Part shown: positions 4,478 to 14,151 of the stretch, one piece after another
Layout of the letters: each line of letters starts with the position of its first letter
Numbering within the stretch: the stretch's first letter is position 1
NCBI RefSeq assembly: GCF_000420485.1
Contig: NZ_ATVA01000012.1
Span: 1-64,000, forward strand
DNA: 64,000 nt
Direction of reading: 5' to 3'
Source of the DNA: Paucidesulfovibrio longus DSM 6739
GTDB taxonomy: Bacteria > Desulfobacterota > Desulfovibrionia > Desulfovibrionales > Desulfovibrionaceae
The notes under the pieces: model-generated
What the model was told of the DNA's origin: nothing
Seen by the model: only the letters and a program-made list of their open reading frames with translations
Databases searched by the model: none
Made by a program: the position numbers and the translations under genes

Positions 4478-5497
4478 TCAAGTTTTTCCCGGGGCAGGCT
4501 CCGGGTTCTCCTTGTCTGTTGATGGAGAGTCCTGATCGACTTTGTTGATTTTACCATCGAACAGAGCCCGAGTTTTGAACGCATTGACGGTCATGGCGAT
4601 CGCTGCAACTTCCTTCAACTCTTTAGTTGATGCCCCGGATTGCCCCGCAACTGCGAGGCCAAAATCGGTTCAGGGATCACACCCTGCGGCCAGGGCCGCC
4701 CCCAGAGCAACCAGTTGTTTGGTTTTGTGGTCAAGGGCTCCTGGTGCCAGGGAGGCGTCCATAAACGCCTGAAACTTATCTAGTGGGTCACTCATCGACG
4801 TCTCCTCACAAGGGTCGAGGTCCCAGGTTGACGGAACCGATCCCTTTTTCATGCTGACGCAAAACAGATCACGGGGCAGGCCCCCTTCCTCCATGCGCTC
4901 GATTTTCAGAATTTCGTAGCCTTTAGCTAGTTGTCGAACTTTCCCTTCGGTAAAGAAGTGAACGACAAAATCGCCGATTTCGTAAATGTCTTCACCAAGG
5001 TGGGTACCAGTTCGATAGTGTTTGTCAAAACTGCTGCGAACCGAGTAAACAGCTAGCCCCCCTGGTTTGAGGATGCGGTGAGTTTCACGTAAAATAAAGG
5101 CGATTTCGGCAGTTGAAAGCTCCATGCAGAGCAACATGTGCGAGTAGCAAGCATCAAAGGATTCGTCAGTAAACGGAAGCGGTTCCCTCAGGTCTTGAAC
5201 CTGCGTGCGGAGTCGAGAAGATAGCCCGATATTTGCCGCTTTTTCACTCACCTCTGCAACAGCGGATTCCGAGTAGTCGAGACCGGTCACATTAAGTCCA
5301 TTTTGAGCAAAGAGAAAACTGTCGCGCCCTTGGCCACAACCCAGTTCCAGCAGCGATATCACGTTATTTTGCTGAAAGAGATTCAGTGATACTTTGGCAA
5401 ACTGACTCGGTTCCTCACCGAAAAACGCTCCAGACTCGGTGAAGACTTCATCCCAGTGGGATTTCTGCTCCTTTTTCGGCTTATGTTCCGGTGTCAT
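4478..5497 (-). CDS. SAM methyltransferase fused to AhpD/CMD domain, predicted selenoprotein (UGA = Sec)
   Basis: Residues 1-230 form a class I SAM-dependent methyltransferase (motif I LLELGCGQGRD at about 49-59; LKPGGLAVYSVRS later). Residues 235-339 resemble carboxymuconolactone decarboxylase/AhpD proteins. An in-frame UGA at 4670-4672 follows GCDP. Reading it as selenocysteine gives C273-D-P-U276, the CxxC redox motif of this family, then TDFGLAVAGQSGASTKELKE and a good CMD helix to a TGA at 4478. A SECIS-like hairpin lies just downstream. A GAGGAG site 7 bases before an in-frame ATG at 4795 could also give a separate 105-aa CMD protein. Start 5497 follows AGGG and avoids overlap with the upstream gene. 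The methyl acceptor is unknown; arsenic, selenium or thiol chemistry would fit the ArsR context. Confidence 0.8.
4642..4659 (-). promoter_or_regulatory. Candidate bacterial SECIS element 1
   Basis: Ten bases after the UGA, GCCUCGC pairs with GCGGGGC (7 bp, one G-U pair) around the loop AGUU. The loop starts 17 nt after the UGA and has G at its second position. Both features match the published criteria for bacterial SECIS elements (loop 16-37 nt from UGA, G within the first two loop bases). It lies inside the coding sequence, as bacterial SECIS elements do. Confidence 0.7.
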
Positions 5498-5516
5498 GAT
5501 AATTTTCCCTATAAAC

Positions 5517-5897
5517 TTATTTGCCGGACTCGCCACTGGTATCCTGCGAAGCCGAACCGCCCATCATGCCCTGCATCATCTCCATCATCTTTGGCATCAT
5601 CTCTTTGCACATGTTCATCATCGGCTCTGGTGCTGTGGGAGTTTCTCCCACCTGCTCGCGTTGTTTGTCGGACAGTACGGCCAGTGCCTTTTCGCGAGTC
5701 TCGGCTTCAATATCCTGAAGTTGTTTTATTTGTTCTTCGGAAAGACCGAGTTCTTCGGCTCTGCGGTAAATCGCGCCAGGACTGTCGAGGGCGACAGGGG
5801 TTTGCATCATGGCTTGCCAGCGGTCGATTTTTTCTTCCGGCATTCCTGCCTGCCGCATCTTACTCATGCATTTGTCCATCATTGTTTTCGGGTCCAT
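5517..5897 (-). CDS. Methionine-rich small protein, possible metal-binding/chaperone protein
   Basis: The protein has 126 aa and no signal peptide. A central helical stretch (LGLSEEQIKQLQDIEAETRE ... LSDKQREQV) resembles the LTxxQ/ZraP-CnrR type of heavy-metal-associated helical proteins. The C-terminus is a Met cluster with one Cys (MMNMCKEMMPKMMEMMQGMM), a likely soft-metal ligand patch. The ATG at 5897 is placed 6 bases after AAGGAG; an ATG two codons upstream lies directly against that site. It lies in the ArsR-led operon, 20 bp before the methyltransferase-CMD gene. Metal binding is inferred from composition and context only. Confidence 0.6.
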   Translation of the reverse strand: MDPKTMMDKCMSKMRQAGMPEEKIDRWQAMMQTPVALDSPGAIYRRAEELGLSEEQIKQLQDIEAETREKALAVLSDKQREQVGETPTAPEPMMNMCKEMMPKMMEMMQGMMGGSASQDTSGESGK

Positions 5898-7648: not shown

Positions 7649-8047
7649 ATGAACCAGCTGACAATCGGCCAGGCCGCAAAGCTCTCCGGCGTCGGCGTCG
7701 AAACGATCCGCTTTTACGAGCGCCAGGGACTCATCGAACAACCGCCCAAACCAGACAACGGCTTCCGCCGCTACCCTCCGGAAACGGTCCGGAAAATCCG
7801 CTTCATCCGGCGGGCCAAGGAGATCGGCTTTTCCCTCCGGGAGATTCATGAATTGCTCGGTTTTTATTTCGATACGCAAACCAGCTGCGAAGACGTCCGG
7901 GATCAAGCGAAGATCAAGATCGCCGATATGGAGGCCAGAATTGCTGCCCTGGGAAAAATGAAGACCGCCCTGCAGGCCCTGGTCGATGAATGCGGAACCC
8001 GGGAGGGCGAGTGCCCCATTCTGGAAACCCTGGCCGAGGACTACTGA
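7649..8047 (+). CDS. merR: Mercuric resistance regulator MerR
   Basis: The protein of 132 aa has the MerR helix-turn-helix (TIGQAAKLSGVGVETIRFYE) and dimerisation helix. Three Cys lie at the positions used for Hg(II) binding: one in TSCEDV and two in the loop DECGTREGECPI. It represses mer in the absence of mercury and activates by DNA distortion when Hg(II) binds. The AAGGAGG site precedes the ATG. It is the first gene of the operon, so it is probably autoregulated through the palindrome at 7603-7620. Confidence 0.93.
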   Translation: MNQLTIGQAAKLSGVGVETIRFYERQGLIEQPPKPDNGFRRYPPETVRKIRFIRRAKEIGFSLREIHELLGFYFDTQTSCEDVRDQAKIKIADMEARIAALGKMKTALQALVDECGTREGECPILETLAEDY

Positions 8048-8060
8048 GGAAGGAACAAGC

Positions 8061-8714
8061 ATGACGACGGCCGAAACTCTTTATCGTTTGCACGGCCTGC
8101 TGCCCTTGAAGGAACGCCAGCTACGCCTTTCGCAGATCGAGGTGAAATTGCACCAGGCGATCCTGCACTCCTTCGTGGAGCGGGGCCGGCCCTTGGCGAA
8201 GGGGGAAATCTCCCGGTCGCTAGATGCAGCGAACCCCGATACCCTTCTGGATCGCCTGCGTGCCTGTGACCTGGTCGTCCTTGACGGCCGAGGAGAGGTG
8301 GTCGGAGCCTACCCCTTCACCATAGAAAAGACCCATCACGTGGTGGAGGTCAACGGCCACCGACTTCAGGCCATGTGCGCTCTCGATGCCCTGGCGGTCA
8401 GTCCGATGTTCGATTTGGAGGTGCAGATCCATTCCCGTTGTGCATCGAGCCAAGTACCGATCCGCCTACTGCAGCGGGACCTTGAGCTGCTTGAGATGGA
8501 ACCGTCGGAGGATCTGCTGCTGGGCATCCACTGGCAGGAGGCCACAACCTGTGCCGCCCACAGCCTGTGTCGGGAGATGGTTTTTCTGAAAGACCTCGAT
8601 GCCGCCATGCGTTGGCAGAAGATAGCCCCCGAGGTCAGGGAACTGTTCGGGCCTCAGGAGGCGGCCCGGATCGCCGCGCAATTCTTCATGCCCCTTTTGC
8701 AGGAGGTGACCTAA
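8061..8714 (+). CDS. merB: Organomercurial lyase MerB
   Basis: MerB cleaves the C-Hg bond of organomercurials to release Hg(II) for MerA. The 217-aa sequence has the family catalytic motif MCALDALA (C106, D109) and further Cys at 164 and 170 (TTCAAHSLC), candidates for the second catalytic Cys. The N-terminal winged-helix-like region is present. The ATG at 8061 follows GAGGAAGGAACAAGC. It lies 13 bp after merR. Its presence makes this a broad-spectrum mercury operon able to handle methylmercury, relevant to anaerobes living with mercury methylators. Confidence 0.92.
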   Translation: MTTAETLYRLHGLLPLKERQLRLSQIEVKLHQAILHSFVERGRPLAKGEISRSLDAANPDTLLDRLRACDLVVLDGRGEVVGAYPFTIEKTHHVVEVNGHRLQAMCALDALAVSPMFDLEVQIHSRCASSQVPIRLLQRDLELLEMEPSEDLLLGIHWQEATTCAAHSLCREMVFLKDLDAAMRWQKIAPEVRELFGPQEAARIAAQFFMPLLQEVT

Positions 8715-8741
8715 ATGACAGCCCTGAAAGGAGAGACTTCC

Positions 8742-9110
8742 ATGAAAACTGACCCGTCGGGAGGAAAAAGACTCATCGGCTTTGGCCTTATCGGCGCGGT
8801 GGTGTCCGGCATTCTCGCCTCGGCCTGCTGCATCGGTCCGCTTCTGCTGGTCTTTCTCGGAATCGGCAGCGCCGGTGCCTTGACCGCCCTTGAACCGTAC
8901 CGCCCATATATGATGGCCCTGACCTTTCTGTTCCTCGGCGGGGCGTTCTATTTTACCTATCGCAAACCGAAAGCCGCCGGATGCGAAGAAAGTGAAGCCT
9001 GCTGCAAAAACGGCGGCAGGAAATTCCAGAAGATCATGCTGTGGATTGCCGCCGTGTTTGCCTTGGCCATGCTGTTTTCCCCGCAGATTCTGCTGGCTCT
9101 GCTTGACTGA
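8742..9110 (+). CDS. merT: Mercuric ion transporter MerT
   Basis: This inner-membrane Hg(II) importer has 122 aa and three TM helices. The first helix carries the vicinal Cys pair in SACCIGPLLL. A second Cys cluster (AAGCEESEACC) sits in the cytoplasmic loop between helices 2 and 3. It would accept Hg(II) from MerP and pass it to MerA. The start at 8742 has AGGAG about 8 bases upstream; an upstream ATG at 8715 lacks such a site. It lies between merB and merP. Confidence 0.9.
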   Translation: MKTDPSGGKRLIGFGLIGAVVSGILASACCIGPLLLVFLGIGSAGALTALEPYRPYMMALTFLFLGGAFYFTYRKPKAAGCEESEACCKNGGRKFQKIMLWIAAVFALAMLFSPQILLALLD

Positions 9111-9125
9111 AAGGAGATGCGCATC

Positions 9126-9485
9126 ATGAAAAAAGTCTGGCAAATTGCTGCGACCACGATCCTCTTGGGCGACCTGACCATAGCCCCCATGACCTTGCCT
9201 GCCTCCTGCGGTTGTTCAACCACCTGTGGCGTGACAAGCGCCCATGCGGCGGAAAGCCAGACCGTCGATTTGGCTCTGGAGGGGCTGACTTGCGCATCCT
9301 GCAAATTTGCGGTCAAGGCGGCGCTGAAACGTTTGGACGGGGTTGAGCAGGTGGACGTCAACTATGAAGAACGCAAGGCTACGGTCGTTTACGATCCCGA
9401 GAAAGTGACGCCGCAGCAACTGGTCGATGCGGTCAATGCGACCGGCTTCCATGCGGAACTTCGATCATCAGCGGACGAAAAGTGA
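9126..9485 (+). CDS. merP: Periplasmic mercury-binding protein MerP
   Basis: The 119-aa precursor has a signal peptide (about residues 1-38, AHAAE cleavage region). The mature part is a heavy-metal-associated (HMA) domain with the metal loop LTCASCKF. It scavenges Hg(II) in the periplasm for MerT. The signal-peptide region itself holds extra Cys (SCGCSTTCG), which is unusual. The ATG at 9126 lies 9 bases after AGGAG; another ATG at 9117 overlaps that site. Confidence 0.9.
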   Translation: MKKVWQIAATTILLGDLTIAPMTLPASCGCSTTCGVTSAHAAESQTVDLALEGLTCASCKFAVKAALKRLDGVEQVDVNYEERKATVVYDPEKVTPQQLVDAVNATGFHAELRSSADEK

Positions 9486-9513: not shown

Positions 9514-9759
9514 ATGCCATTTATCTGCTACTGCTTCGAACATACCGAAGCTGAGATTCGTTCCGACGTGCTGGAACACGCCGGCCACAGCGAAATCCTG
9601 GAGACCATTTTGGCCGCCAAAAAGCAAGGGGCCTGTCAATGTGCCGAAAAGCATCCGGAGAGACGCTGATGCCTGGGAGACGTCCACCGTGTTGTGGATG
9701 CCGCCAGAAAAGAGCTGATAAACCACAAGGAGGCTGATTGTGACGACAAGCAACTATGA
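9514..9759 (+). CDS. CopZ-like 2Fe-2S metallochaperone domain, predicted selenoprotein (UGA = Sec)
   Basis: The frame starts MPFICYCFEHTEAEIRSDVL after GGGGGAAA and meets UGA at 9667-9669. Stopping there leaves 51 aa and cuts the domain just before its last cysteines. Reading UGA as selenocysteine gives RR-U52-C53-LGDVHRVVDAARKEL and a stop at 9757-9759 (81 aa). Relatives of the BFD/CopZ N-terminal type have CxC ... CxC ... CCLGDV, so the UGA aligns with the first Cys of the final pair. Other ligand Cys are C5, C7, C41 and C43. A SECIS-like hairpin follows. The gene lies between merP and merA and overlaps merA by 20 bp. A role in delivering Hg(II) or electrons to MerA is an inference. Confidence 0.82.
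9681..9700 (+). promoter_or_regulatory. Candidate bacterial SECIS element 2
   Basis: CGUCCAC (9681-9687) pairs with GUGGAUG (9694-9700) over 7 bp, including one G-U pair, around the loop CGUGUU. The loop begins 18 nt after the UGA and has G at its second position, matching accepted bacterial SECIS criteria. It is inside the reading frame. Confidence 0.7.
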
Positions 9760-11149
9760 CCTCATCATCCTCGGTGGCGGCGCGGCAGCTTTTGCTGCGG
9801 CGACTGAAGCTGATCGCCAAAATCTGCGTACGATCATCATTAATGCCGGTCTTCCCCTGGGTGGTACCTGCGTCAACGTCGGCTGCGTGCCGAGCAAGCA
9901 CCTGCTGGCGCTGGGGAAAAACCTGCATCATCCGGCTCATCCCGATTTTCCCAGTGTCGAAGCGGTCACTCCATCCTTCGATTTCCCACGGGCCATGGCC
10001 GACAAGGATGCACTGGTCAATGCGTTGCGGCAGCAGAACTATCAGGATGTTCTGGACAGTTTTCAACAGGTTGAATATTTGGAAGGACGCGGCAAGTTGA
10101 TTGATGCCCATATGGTCGAGGCCGCCAGGAAAAAACTGACCGGCGACAAGATCCTGATCGCCACCGGCAGCTCCACCAAAATTCCTCCTTTTAAAGGTCT
10201 GGAAGAAACCGGCTACCTGACCCACATCGAGGCCTTGGAATTGCAGCGACTCCCTGCGTCTTTGGTCATCTTTGGGGCCGGATTTCTCGCCCTGGAATTT
10301 GCCCAGATTTTCAACCGGATGGGAACTCGGGTGACCCTGGTGGCGCGAGCCCCGCGCATCCTGCGTATCCAGGAACCAGAAATATCCGTTGCCCTGCGCG
10401 GCTATTTTGAAGCGGAGGGGATCGAGATTGTCACCGAAGCCGGGGTGCAGGAGATCTGCAAAGGTCAAAACGGCAAACAAGTGGCCCTGACCACTCCCAG
10501 TGGGGAGCGCCGGTTGGAAACCGAAGAAATTCTGGTCGCCACCGGCGTCCGTGGCAATATCGACGGACTCGGTTTGGGGCAGGTCGGCGTTGCCACCGAA
10601 CATGGCGAGCGGATCGCAGTGAATGAACATCTGCAGACCAGCGTGCCGCATATCTATGCCGCCGGTGACGTCACCGGCAGAATACAACTGGAAACTGTCG
10701 CGGCCAAGGAAGGGAAAATAGCCGTTGAGAATGCCTTCGCCGATGCGGGCAAAGTCCTCGATTTCCAGAGCATCCCCTATGCCGTATTCACCGACCCGGA
10801 AGTAGCCAGCGTCGGCATGACCGAAGCGGAGTATGTGGCCATTTACGGCACCTGCTCCTGCCGGACGGTCAGCCTCGACCGGGTTCCCCGCGCCGTTGCG
10901 GTCAGGGATACGCGGGGTCTCTTGAAGATGGTGGCACATCACGAAACGGGGCAGGTGATGGGAGTACACCTCCTGGCCCCCAACGCCTCGGAGATGATCC
11001 ACGAGGCGGTGCTGGCGGTCAAACACGGCTTGAGTGTGGACGACCTGATCGATACCGTGCACGTCTTTCCGACCTACAGCGAGGCGATCAAGATCGCCGC
11101 TCAGGCCTTCCGCCGGAACATCTCAACCATGAGCTGCTGTGTGGAATAG
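9740..11149 (+). CDS. merA: Mercuric reductase MerA (short form, no N-terminal HMA domain)
   Basis: This flavin disulfide oxidoreductase reduces Hg(II) to Hg(0) with NADPH. The FAD motif is LIILGGGAAAFAAA at the N-terminus. The redox Cys pair is GGTCVNVGCVPSK (C44, C49). The NAD(P) motif is VIFGAGFLALEFAQ. The C-terminal vicinal Cys pair that delivers Hg(II) is SCC (466-467) in MSCCVE. The length of 469 aa shows that the NmerA metallochaperone domain is absent. The GTG start at 9740 has AAGGAGG upstream and overlaps the end of the predicted selenoprotein, suggesting translational coupling. Confidence 0.94.
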   Translation: MTTSNYDLIILGGGAAAFAAATEADRQNLRTIIINAGLPLGGTCVNVGCVPSKHLLALGKNLHHPAHPDFPSVEAVTPSFDFPRAMADKDALVNALRQQNYQDVLDSFQQVEYLEGRGKLIDAHMVEAARKKLTGDKILIATGSSTKIPPFKGLEETGYLTHIEALELQRLPASLVIFGAGFLALEFAQIFNRMGTRVTLVARAPRILRIQEPEISVALRGYFEAEGIEIVTEAGVQEICKGQNGKQVALTTPSGERRLETEEILVATGVRGNIDGLGLGQVGVATEHGERIAVNEHLQTSVPHIYAAGDVTGRIQLETVAAKEGKIAVENAFADAGKVLDFQSIPYAVFTDPEVASVGMTEAEYVAIYGTCSCRTVSLDRVPRAVAVRDTRGLLKMVAHHETGQVMGVHLLAPNASEMIHEAVLAVKHGLSVDDLIDTVHVFPTYSEAIKIAAQAFRRNISTMSCCVE

Positions 11150-11161
11150 GGAGAAGAGGTG

Positions 11162-11386
11162 ATGAGCAAACCCGGCAAACAGTACCGTAACCGCTTTTTC
11201 GCCGCATTGGCCGGTACGGTCGCGGTGGCGCTCTGCTGCTTCACGCTGGCCCTGGTTCTGCTGCTCGCAGGCCTGGGCCTGAGTTCTCTGACCCCCTATC
11301 TCGATATGGTGCTCCTGCCGGCCCTGCTCATTCTGATCATCATCGCCGTGCGTTCCTATCGGAAATGGAAAGCATCCCAAGAGTAG
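11162..11386 (+). CDS. merF: MerF-like mercury transporter lacking the second Cys pair
   Basis: The 74-aa protein has two TM helices. It closely resembles MerF in VALCCFTLALVLLLAGLGLS and LDMVLLPALLIL. The first vicinal Cys pair (ALCCF, helix 1) is present. The usual second pair in the C-terminal tail is missing: the protein ends RKWKASQE before a TAG. Hg(II) hand-off to the cytosol would therefore need another thiol protein. The start at 11162 follows GGGAGAAGAGG. It lies 12 bp after merA. Confidence 0.8.
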   Translation: MSKPGKQYRNRFFAALAGTVAVALCCFTLALVLLLAGLGLSSLTPYLDMVLLPALLILIIIAVRSYRKWKASQE

Positions 11387-11414
11387 GGTGAAACCCCACC
11401 CTGGAAAGGAGCCC

Positions 11415-11927
11415 ATGATGAAACGGATTCTTTTACTGATCACCGGATTGATTCTGCTCACAGCCCCCGCCATGGCCGGAGCAGGTGACGGCAAAACCTT
11501 TCTCATCCACGCCAAAACCTCAATGGATCTGGACGACGCCCAGATCTGCGCCGTGCCCAATGTCGCCTGGACCGCCCTGCAAGAGGGATACAAGGTTGTC
11601 ATCCTGTTCGACGCCAGCGGCGTGACGGCGATCAAGAAGGGGGGTCTGTTCGGCGGCGACCAGACGCCGCTGGACAAGGCGGCGCTTCCGGAGCGCGAAC
11701 GCCTGTCTCTGACCGAACAGCTCGGGGTGCCGCTGGAGAACGTCCCCCACGACTACGGGCAGTACATCCGCTTTTTGAAGGCGAAAGGGGTCGAACTCTA
11801 CGCCAACCGGACCATGATGCTGCTCTACAAGATCGGCGAGGATGAAATCGAACAGACGGTGACCCCCATCGGCTTGAAGAATATGGTGGAACTGTTAGAG
11901 AACCGCGATGTTTATGTAGCCTATTGA
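11415..11927 (+). CDS. Exported DsrE-like protein
   Basis: The 170-aa protein has an N-terminal signal sequence (MKRILLLITGLILLTAPAMA, in two hydrophobic halves). The body resembles the DsrE/DsrF-like fold (ALQEGYKVVILFDASGV ... YIRFLKAKGVELYANRTMM). The sulfur-carrying Cys typical of DsrE is not seen at the usual place; only one Cys is visible (QICAVP). The ATG pair at 11415/11418 follows AAAGGAGCCC. It is the last gene of the first mer operon. A periplasmic role with sulfur or metal is possible but unproven. Confidence 0.65.
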   Translation: MMKRILLLITGLILLTAPAMAGAGDGKTFLIHAKTSMDLDDAQICAVPNVAWTALQEGYKVVILFDASGVTAIKKGGLFGGDQTPLDKAALPERERLSLTEQLGVPLENVPHDYGQYIRFLKAKGVELYANRTMMLLYKIGEDEIEQTVTPIGLKNMVELLENRDVYVAY

Positions 11928-12326: not shown

Positions 12327-12357
12327 TTGACTCGGTACCATGGTACCGCCCCTATCC
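12327..12357 (+). promoter_or_regulatory. mer promoter/operator 2 (MerR type)
   Basis: TTGACT (12327-12332), a 19-bp spacer and CTATCC (12352-12357) match promoter 1 in design. The spacer holds the perfect 16-bp palindrome CGGTACCATGGTACCG (12333-12348), whose core CCATGG half-sites are shared with operator 1. Cross-regulation by the two MerR proteins is therefore plausible. Confidence 0.85.
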
Positions 12358-12377
12358 TGTATGAAAAGGAAGGAAGA

Positions 12378-12803
12378 ATGCCCATGAAAGGGTTGACCAT
12401 TGGCCAACTGGCCCAACAGTCCGGAGTGCAAGTGGAAACGGTCAAATTCTACCAGCGTCGCGGACTCATCCAGCAGCCGCCTCGCCCTGAATCAGGGTTC
12501 CGGAAATACTCACCTGAGACGGTGCGGCAGATCCGCTTTATCCGCCGCGCCAAGGAACTCGGATTCTCTTTGCAGGAAATTAGCGAGCTGCTCAGCCTGC
12601 GGGTTGCTCCAGGGACAAGTTGTCGCGAGATCAAGGCCCGGGCCGAAGCCAAACTCGCCGACATCCAACAGAAACAGAGGGATCTGGAGAGGATGGAGAC
12701 AATCCTGCGGCAACTGGCCGAGACCTGTCAGGGCCAGGGGCCGCTCAGCGAATGCCCGATTCTGGGTGCCCTGGATGAAAAGGAGGAAGATGATTCTGGA
12801 TGA
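12378..12803 (+). CDS. merR: Second MerR-family mercury regulator
   Basis: The 141-aa protein has the MerR DNA-binding region (TIGQLAQQSGVQVETVKFYQ) and a long dimer helix. It keeps the three Hg-binding Cys: GTSCREI and the loop ETCQGQGPLSECPI, which is slightly longer than in the first MerR. It leads the second rightward unit and is preceded by its own MerR-type operator. The start at 12378 follows AAGGAAGGAAG. The two MerR proteins are clearly related but not identical, pointing to a duplicated or captured module. Confidence 0.9.
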   Translation: MPMKGLTIGQLAQQSGVQVETVKFYQRRGLIQQPPRPESGFRKYSPETVRQIRFIRRAKELGFSLQEISELLSLRVAPGTSCREIKARAEAKLADIQQKQRDLERMETILRQLAETCQGQGPLSECPILGALDEKEEDDSG

Positions 12804-13257
12804 CAATACCGAAACGATGCCGCCAATTGTTGAACCTCCTGCGCAGACCGGCCCCCAGAGTCGCTGGAATAGGGCAATGGCCGTTGTTACGGCTTTGCTC
12901 AGCGCGGTGGCCGTTAAGCTCACCTGCCCCGCCTGCTGGTCAGCCTATGCGGCCCTGCTCGGCTCGACCGGCGTGGCTGGCTTTGCCTCCATCCCCTATC
13001 TCTTCCCCCTGACTCTACTGAGCTTGCTTCTGGTAACGGCATCGCTCGCTTACGGGGCGAAAAAGCGGCAGGGATATGGACCGCTTCTCCTCGGTTTAGT
13101 GGGGAGCGGGACCATCCTGCTGGGGAATTTTACGGTCGCTTCGATCGCCATGCAGAACGCAGGAGTCGCCGCCTTGGTTGGGGCCTCAATCTGGAACTCA
13201 TGGCCCAGAAGTAAAAGTAATTGCCCGGCCTGCGTCCAAGTGGAAATGGAAGAATGA
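12790..13257 (+). CDS. MerC-like membrane protein with two CPAC motifs
   Basis: The protein has 155 aa and about four TM helices. The first helix contains LTCPACWSAYAALLGSTGVA, and the C-terminal tail has a second CPAC (SNCPACVQVEMEE). These paired-Cys sites resemble mercury transporters of the MerC/MerT type, although I cannot assign it to one family. The ATG at 12790 follows GGAGGAAG and overlaps the merR2 end by 14 bp. Probable role: Hg(II) passage across the inner membrane for the second unit. Confidence 0.65.
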   Translation: MILDDNTETMPPIVEPPAQTGPQSRWNRAMAVVTALLSAVAVKLTCPACWSAYAALLGSTGVAGFASIPYLFPLTLLSLLLVTASLAYGAKKRQGYGPLLLGLVGSGTILLGNFTVASIAMQNAGVAALVGASIWNSWPRSKSNCPACVQVEMEE

Positions 13258-13294
13258 ATCCGGGAAACCTAACAGATACGAAAGGAGAAAAATT

Positions 13295-13564
13295 ATGACC
13301 GCGAAACGTAAAATCGAAGTTTTCACTGCCGGTTGTCAGGTCTGTCAGCAGGCCGTCGAACAGGTCGAACAACTTGCTTGTCCTTCCTGCGAGGTGCAGG
13401 TCCTTGACATGCAGGACACGGCTGTCGCCGCTCGGGCAAAGACACTGGGCATCCGTTCCCTGCCCGCCGTTGCCATTAACGGCCAGCTCGCAGACTGTTG
13501 CTCTGGACGCGGACTGGACGAGAGCAAGCTCAGGGCCGCCGGAATCGGTCAGCCGCTGTCCTGA
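13295..13564 (+). CDS. Small thioredoxin-fold protein with CxxC
   Basis: The 89-aa protein has a glutaredoxin/thioredoxin-like fold: KIEVFTAGCQVCQQAV with CQVC near residue 13, and a cis-Pro-like IRSLPAVAING. Additional Cys pairs (ACPSC, DCC) are present. The ATG follows AAAGGAGAAAAATT. In a mercury unit it could keep thiols reduced or carry Hg(II). It has no signal peptide and is therefore cytoplasmic. It lies 37 bp after the MerC-like gene. Confidence 0.7.
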   Translation: MTAKRKIEVFTAGCQVCQQAVEQVEQLACPSCEVQVLDMQDTAVAARAKTLGIRSLPAVAINGQLADCCSGRGLDESKLRAAGIGQPLS

Positions 13565-13638
13565 GATGAACCGATAGTTGAAGCCGGCCCCCGCAACCAG
13601 TCCAGTCCCGCAGGGTCGGTAGAAGGGAGAAATGTAAA

Positions 13639-14151
13639 ATGGTATGGCGAACGCTTAACACTATCTTGGTCGTGTTGCTTGTCCTGCTCCCGGTGACAGC
13701 AGCAGCCGAAGTTACCCAGGCCGTGGTCTCTGTAGAGGGGATGTCCTGCCCCTTCTGCGCCTTTGGGGTCGAGAAAAAACTCAAGACCGTCGATGGCACA
13801 AGCGAAGTGAAGGTGGACATGAAAGGCGGCACCGCTACCCTGGTTGCCAAAGACGGCAAGTCTCTTGAGATCGGCCAGATCGGCCAAGCGGTCCGGACTG
13901 CTGGATTTACGCCTGGCCGCCTGAGAATCACTGCCATCGGCGTGGTGAAGCAAGAGAATGAGAACCTGTTGTTGGTCGTGCGCAACTCATCTCTGACCAT
14001 CCATTTGCTCAACCTGCCGCTGCCGCTCAAACAGCAGTTGCTGGCCCTGGTGAAATCCGGAGCAGTGGCGAGTCTTTCCGGAACCGTGCATGAGCACGTG
14101 GACGACTTGCCGGCCATGACGCCGGAAACTGTTCTGGAGGTCACGCCATGA
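13639..14151 (+). CDS. Exported HMA-domain protein with C-terminal extension
   Basis: A signal peptide (MVWRTLNTILVVLLVLLPVTAAAE) is followed by a MerP-like heavy-metal-associated domain with loop MSCPFCAFGVEKKL (about residues 37-50). A C-terminal extension of about 70 residues (from ITAIGVVKQENENLLL) is not part of MerP and I do not recognise it. The total is 170 aa. It probably binds Hg(II) in the periplasm. It overlaps the downstream outer-membrane gene by 4 bp (ATGA), suggesting coupled synthesis. Confidence 0.75.
   Translation: MVWRTLNTILVVLLVLLPVTAAAEVTQAVVSVEGMSCPFCAFGVEKKLKTVDGTSEVKVDMKGGTATLVAKDGKSLEIGQIGQAVRTAGFTPGRLRITAIGVVKQENENLLLVVRNSSLTIHLLNLPLPLKQQLLALVKSGAVASLSGTVHEHVDDLPAMTPETVLEVTP

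Follow-up and report, generated by a model that had tools for sequence, protein, structure and literature searches.

A selenocysteine-encoding gene of the CopZ N-terminal type in the mer operon of Paucidesulfovibrio longus, and its possible part in carrying mercury

Selenoproteins related to the copper chaperone CopZ and selenoproteins of mercury transport have both been catalogued. A 2026 review lists the "(2Fe-2S)-binding protein (copper chaperone CopZ family)" as a selenoprotein in two forms, form 1 (GxUC) and form 2 (CU), and also lists Sec forms of the mercuric transport protein and of the UxxU metal-binding protein (PMC13188914). The main text of Zhang and Gladyshev (2008) lists Sec forms of MerP and of a mercuric transport protein and does not name CopZ. 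Among curated protein models, NF047645 (CopZ_Nterm_CC) represents a putative iron-sulfur cluster-binding metallochaperone, NF045877 (CopZ_Nterm_CU) represents the Csac_0668 family (seleno)protein, form 2, and NF045683 (MerT/CopZ fusion-like heavy metal transport selenoprotein) and NF041115 (UxxU) represent selenoproteins of the MerT/MerP metal transport line. The N-terminal domain of Archaeoglobus fulgidus CopZ is available as PDB entry 2hu9, and the Cu(II) reduction that Archaeoglobus CopZ carries out in the cytosol has been ascribed to its iron-sulfur domain (PMC7558416).

Here, we describe a gene of this type in a mer operon of Paucidesulfovibrio longus DSM 6739. The window analysed comprises 64,000 nucleotides (positions 1 to 64,000 of the forward strand of contig NZ_ATVA01000012.1) of a host genome of 3.70 Mb in 19 contigs. 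On the plus strand at 9514..9759, ATG 9514 opens a frame of 51 codons that reaches a TGA at 9667-9669, continues with TGC CTG GGA GAC GTC (Cys-Leu-Gly-Asp-Val) and stays open to a TGA at 9757-9759; the complete frame is MPFICYCFEHTEAEIRSDVLEHAGHSEILETILAAKKQGACQCAEKHPERR-UGA-CLGDVHRVVDAARKELINHKEADCDDKQL-stop. With the in-frame UGA (9667..9669, plus strand) read as Sec at residue 52, the first of a U-C pair, the gene has 81 codons, and we refer to it as the U-C gene. It starts 28 nt past merP, and its 3' end overlaps the merA GTG (9740) by 20 nt, with merA's own RBS-type sequence, AAGGAGG, at 9727-9733. The first-pass annotation had described a 51-codon frame between merP and merA, halted by a UGA and running on to 9759 across the merA GTG, and the coordinates bear out both points. 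It had also called the product a hidden selenoprotein; the Sec reading holds, but the kind of selenoprotein is already known, because CopZ family forms 1 and 2, including the GxUC form, are listed in PMC13188914.

On sequence grounds, we assign the U-C protein to the CopZ N-terminal [2Fe-2S] type. A PDB sequence search with a profile of 41 members gave 2hu9 as the sole match (E = 0.0012), in an alignment that matches the CYC and NPxGRCC motifs, and two NCBIfam models of CopZ N-terminal domains also matched, NF047645 in its C-terminal part only (E = 2e-11, 44.1 bits, cut-off 100) and NF045877 with E = 2e-5 (24.9 bits, cut-off 190). Both scores fall below the curated cut-offs because the upstream part of the models is missing from the U-C protein, and at 44.1 versus 100 bits the protein is not filed in the NF047645 equivalog; at the level of sequence, the CopZ-like assignment made earlier was nevertheless right. 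The ligand pattern CYC...C...NPxG(R)-C/U-C is present in the protein, and the residues invariant in the family are C5, C7, G24, S26, I32, G39, C43, P48, U52, C53 and V57. If C5, C7, C43 and one member of the U-C pair were the cluster ligands, the other member of the pair would be left free. An AlphaFold2 model had a pLDDT of 88, and a Foldseek search with it against the PDB gave nothing better than E 4. A Pfam search with the U-C protein found no match, and automatic annotation can miss the gene since its product stays below the cut-off of every NCBIfam model. In addition, the gene escapes gene finders owing to a mid-frame UGA "stop" that almost certainly encodes selenocysteine.

Each of the described systems resembles the U-C protein in part. 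CopZ family form 1 (WP_245779778.1, PMC13188914), compared here by description only, likewise has a CopZ-type [2Fe-2S] domain with Sec first in a Sec-Cys pair, but the listing gives no gene neighbourhood, whereas the window copy lies in a mer operon and has R-R-U-C around the Sec; the majority of homologues have G-R-U-C. NF047645 has the ligand pattern CYC...C...CC, with Cys in place of Sec, and an extra N-terminal part. In NF045877, which also combines a CopZ-type domain with Sec in an adjacent pair, Sec stands second (C-U) rather than first (U-C). A. fulgidus CopZ shares the two motifs aligned above but is without Sec, has an extra N-terminal (zinc) part, and as a whole protein includes an HMA copper-carrier domain, and the models NF045683 and NF041115 span MerT and HMA parts, not the CopZ [2Fe-2S] domain.

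The operon, on the plus strand, has the order merR, merB, merT, merP, U-C gene, merA, merF and a weak DsrE-like ORF. Specifically, merR (7649..8047) matched PF09278/PF13411, merB (7986..8714, likely start 8061; organomercurial lyase) matched PF03243 with 93.3 bits, merT (8715..9110) matched PF02411 and NF045683/NF010314, and merP (9117..9485), with a signal-like N-terminus and CxxC, scored 100.2 with NF041115 UxxU_metal_bind against a cut-off of 95. The 469-aa product of merA (9740..11149) matched TIGR02053 over its full length (541.8 bits) and retains the C-terminal Cys pair SCCVE, but lacks the N-terminal HMA (NmerA) domain, its match to the long mercury reductase model NF010311 beginning at position 98 of 560. 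The operon ends with merF (11159..11386; NF033565, 63.4 bits, cut-off 50) and a gene for a DsrE/DsrF-like protein (11388..11927) whose weak match to PF02635 (E = 0.003) is below cut-off. The mer block (about 7-15 kb) has a G+C content of 0.55-0.59, higher than that of its flanks (about 0.50-0.53), and a homologue search of same-genus genomes did not find the U-C gene; because of these two features, the block was likely acquired by transfer. Downstream of the operon, the stretch 12327-14151 encodes another regulator of the MerR type, followed up by a thioredoxin-like ORF and one more MerP-like HMA protein in the same stretch. A second selenoprotein gene lies 4 kb off on the minus strand (4514-5536); its ORF, with methyltransferase and AhpD-like domain, is stopped by a UGA (4670-4672) after GAALAAGCDP, resumes with TDFGLAVAGQ..., and scores 529 bits with MduS (NF045649; cut-off 380).

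The position of the UGA is shared by at least 71 homologous loci of the order, the phylum and Nitrospirota, and in these, too, Cys comes next and the codons beyond are conserved. Homologues were present in 41 of 297 genomes in the order search and in 61 of 395 in the phylum search, nearly all with exactly one TGA within the match. From the fetched loci, which included two Nitrospiraceae MAGs, 67 homologues were extracted with a pattern that would equally have accepted C, S, T or A in place of the UGA, and all 67 had TGA followed by Cys; four further loci, recovered with a looser pattern, had the TGA and all six of the hairpin pairs considered below. The NF047645-type homologues (L094-L099) and P0002 have Cys at the UGA position, in agreement with the proposal that the UGA stands for the first Cys of a Cys pair. 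Compared with three mer-operon relatives, dN/dS was 0.10-0.11 for the 16 codons past the UGA and 0.10-0.18 for the 49 codons before it, values that are rough because dS is near saturation. Instead of a conserved stop, the homologues have either Cys at the site or UGA with a coding continuation, and the codons past the UGA are conserved, with a dN/dS of about 0.1. One copy (L093, G238:C6) has decayed, with a frame change past NPKGS and a hairpin-like stretch still recognisable out of frame. Six similar U-C gene copies occupy the first 210-260 bases of contigs C3, C4, C7, C9, C20 and C36 of another genome (G058); they are probably inside a repeated element, because each stands at a contig end, where the assembly breaks. 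A search of phage records for the U-C protein gave no match.

A hairpin of the bacterial SECIS type follows the UGA in the window (9681..9700, plus strand), with the sequence CGUCCAC-CGUGUU-GUGGAUG, in which a 7-bp stem encloses the loop CGUGUU (9688-9693) that begins 18 nt past the UGA. Numbered from the base after the UGA, the six pairs at the centre of the stem run from 12-29 to 17-24; in a set of 64 distinct sequences, they were formed in 95.6% of cells, and all six were intact in 77%. Resampling of synonymous codons, weighted by the codon usage of the family itself, gave 66.7 +/- 1.9% paired and 5.8% with all six intact, and none of 500 resamplings attained the observed paired fraction or all-six fraction; sliding one arm by 1-3 bases lowered the pairing to 25-58%. 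Compensatory C-G to T-A changes occurred at two pairs (in 4 and 2 sequences), and another pair alternated among A-T, G-T and G-C. The Val codon of the 5' arm was GTC or GTT in all sequences but one (ATT), whereas elsewhere in U-C genes about every second Val codon is GTG or GTA. In relatives with Cys, 2-5 of the six pairs are formed. The evidence used for the hairpin is comparative, because the folding energy of the window hairpin alone is not exceptional (z = -0.66); an Rfam gathering scan of the window, which says little on hairpins inside coding regions, found no match. The conserved hairpin matches the expectation for a bacterial SECIS within a coding region, and the hairpin that the first-pass annotation had pointed out is real and goes well beyond chance, its register recurring with the frame, the UGA and the U-C pair in at least 71 loci.

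The host has the machinery for Sec insertion, namely SelA (596 bits), SelB (368 bits, above cut-off), tRNA-Sec (86.3 bits) and SelD (324 bits; L157, G000:C18:686-1612), which is probably itself a selenoprotein because its gene has an in-frame TGA. Of the 33 good-quality genomes with a U-C gene, 32 have selA, but this adds little, since selA is common in the order regardless (217 of 243 good genomes). The machinery, the conserved UGA, the purifying selection past it, the covarying hairpin and the Cys homologues all agree with the selenoprotein reading proposed earlier, and there is very little doubt that the UGA of the window gene codes selenocysteine.

Screening the neighbourhoods of homologues by tblastn, in retrieved flanking sequence of at most 6 kb, gave a mixed picture. 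Outside the window, no mer gene was detectable in the flanks of the order homologues; neighbours included phosphate transporters, ArsR with a permease, and unrelated housekeeping genes, and the Sec form was also found in homologues without a metal-resistance neighbour. The only mer-operon members in the screened flanks were the window copy and its three closest relatives (L147, L148 and L149), which are 61-66% identical to it and come from one other family of the phylum. Because most of the screened family members lie outside mer operons, the general job of the domain would not be mercury-specific. The three relatives share the arrangement merR-(merB)-merT-merP-X-GDCCVxC-merF, in which X is the U-C gene and merA is absent; merB is present in two of them, as in the window, and missing from L147. 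Their U-C genes occupy the same slot after merP, are co-directional and overlap the next gene, as the window copy does, and this next gene encodes a (seleno)protein of the GDCCVxC domain type (104 bits against a cut-off of 40). Since no MerA above cut-off was found in the genomes of these relatives, and three mer operons thus have the U-C gene without merA, MerA is not an obligate partner and models requiring it are too narrow. The placement of the protein between periplasmic capture and MerA, as proposed earlier, therefore holds in the window but is general only in part. A family tree, built on few alignment columns, did not resolve the grouping of the mer-operon members.

Two gene fusions are the strongest links of the U-C domain to the carriage of Hg(II) or other metal. 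In the first, the Cys form of the domain is fused to MerT-MerP on a Planctomycetes plasmid (CP036351.1; L146 4689-5924), where a 411-aa protein annotated as merA is a CopZ-N(CC)-MerT-MerP fusion and no mercuric reductase; its N-terminal CopZ-N domain, with Cys-Cys, scores 107.9 bits with NF047645, above cut-off. The topology of MerT is usually given as N-in, C-out, which would put the CopZ-N domain of this fusion in the cytosol and its MerP domain in the periplasm. In the second fusion (L150, G434:C167, 3-530), an HMA domain with U-x-x-U is joined to a U-C domain, and three in-frame TGAs in one frame make it an apparent triple selenoprotein; the contig starts inside the HMA domain, so that the 5' end is cut.

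From this context and the two fusions, the best-supported role would be that of a cytosolic Hg(II) acceptor and relay behind MerT. Mercury is bound far more tightly by selenium than by sulfur. The hairpin just 3' of the UGA would direct the Sec reading of this single gene, and the product would be an 81-residue cytosolic domain of the CopZ N-terminal type. Its ligands are CYC, CxC and the Sec-Cys pair, and it should bind a [2Fe-2S] cluster with one selenol or thiol left free nearby. In this operon, the protein most likely acts where MerT faces the cytosol: its Sec-Cys pair would take up the Hg(II) that comes in by way of MerP and MerT and then hand it on, the likely receiver here being MerA, itself without the N-terminal domain that usually collects Hg. 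Where relatives have no merA, Hg(II) may pass to GDCCVxC/MerF, or the metal may simply be held. The Sec coding, the SECIS-type hairpin, the ligand pattern of the family, the place in the mer operon and the fusions with MerT and with an HMA domain are shown computationally; that the protein binds a cluster and Hg(II), and to which partner and in which direction it passes the metal, MerA included, is what we infer. Taken whole, a Sec-read gene for a CopZ-type domain that captures Hg(II) behind MerT and hands it over is the best explanation and a fairly probable one, and for the relay by the Sec-Cys pair as such the balance tilts somewhat in favour. More tentatively, and with rather less than an even chance, the U-C pair beside the cluster might stand in for NmerA as a cytosolic relay dedicated to Hg(II), with Sec as a mercury ligand in a resistance pathway or even a cluster ligand. 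The relay would then belong to a Sec-reinforced form of the MerP-MerT import line, in some cases built as a single polypeptide that contains three Sec.

Other readings of the gene fit parts of these data. Were the UGA a true stop, the product would be a 51-residue protein, and the downstream conservation and the hairpin would come from merA regulation; the frame before the UGA is indeed an ordinary ORF, and merA has its own RBS just downstream. The codons past the UGA are under purifying selection, however, and the same stretch is kept in dozens of genomes with differing or no downstream genes, while Cys homologues read straight on through the UGA position and the hairpin has the register of a SECIS and is missing in Cys forms. 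We consider this explanation hardly credible, and the stop-codon reading was rejected on the conservation of the UGA, the covarying hairpin, the purifying selection and the Cys homologues.

The main rival to the Hg(II) relay accepts the selenoprotein and gives it a redox job, in which the cluster and the adjacent selenol pass electrons and, after recruitment to the mer operon, keep the Cys pairs of MerT and MerA reduced or reduce bound metal. The Cu(II)-reducing domain of Archaeoglobus CopZ (PMC7558416) is the only PDB sequence match and the family is widespread outside mer operons, both of which speak for this role, but the fusions join the domain to metal carriers (MerT-MerP, HMA) rather than to redox enzymes, and MerA brings its own reduction chemistry; we regard a redox role as rather unlikely. 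Alternatively, the selenoprotein may help MerB, its selenol taking Hg(II) from MerB or aiding cleavage of the Hg-C bond instead of serving MerT and MerA. This would suit the presence of merB in the window operon and in the operons of two of the three closest relatives, but the L147 operon has merT-merP-X without merB, and the Cys fusion joins MerT-MerP without MerB, so that such a role seems improbable.

A literature search of partial coverage, and hence weak evidence of absence, returned no description of the mer-operon copy with MerA or of the fusions, and the searchable literature yielded no canonical merR-merB-merT-merP-merA-merF operon with a selenoprotein gene in it; the mer-operon placement of the U-C selenoprotein appears to be unreported so far. 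The U-C gene is a case of a gene overlooked by automatic annotation, and the selenium of its product could help to carry mercury. If the protein is an Hg(II) carrier, the cell would be using Sec to bind a metal for detoxification and not for redox catalysis, and the matched Cys form would make the role of Sec in metal-handling selenoproteins directly testable.
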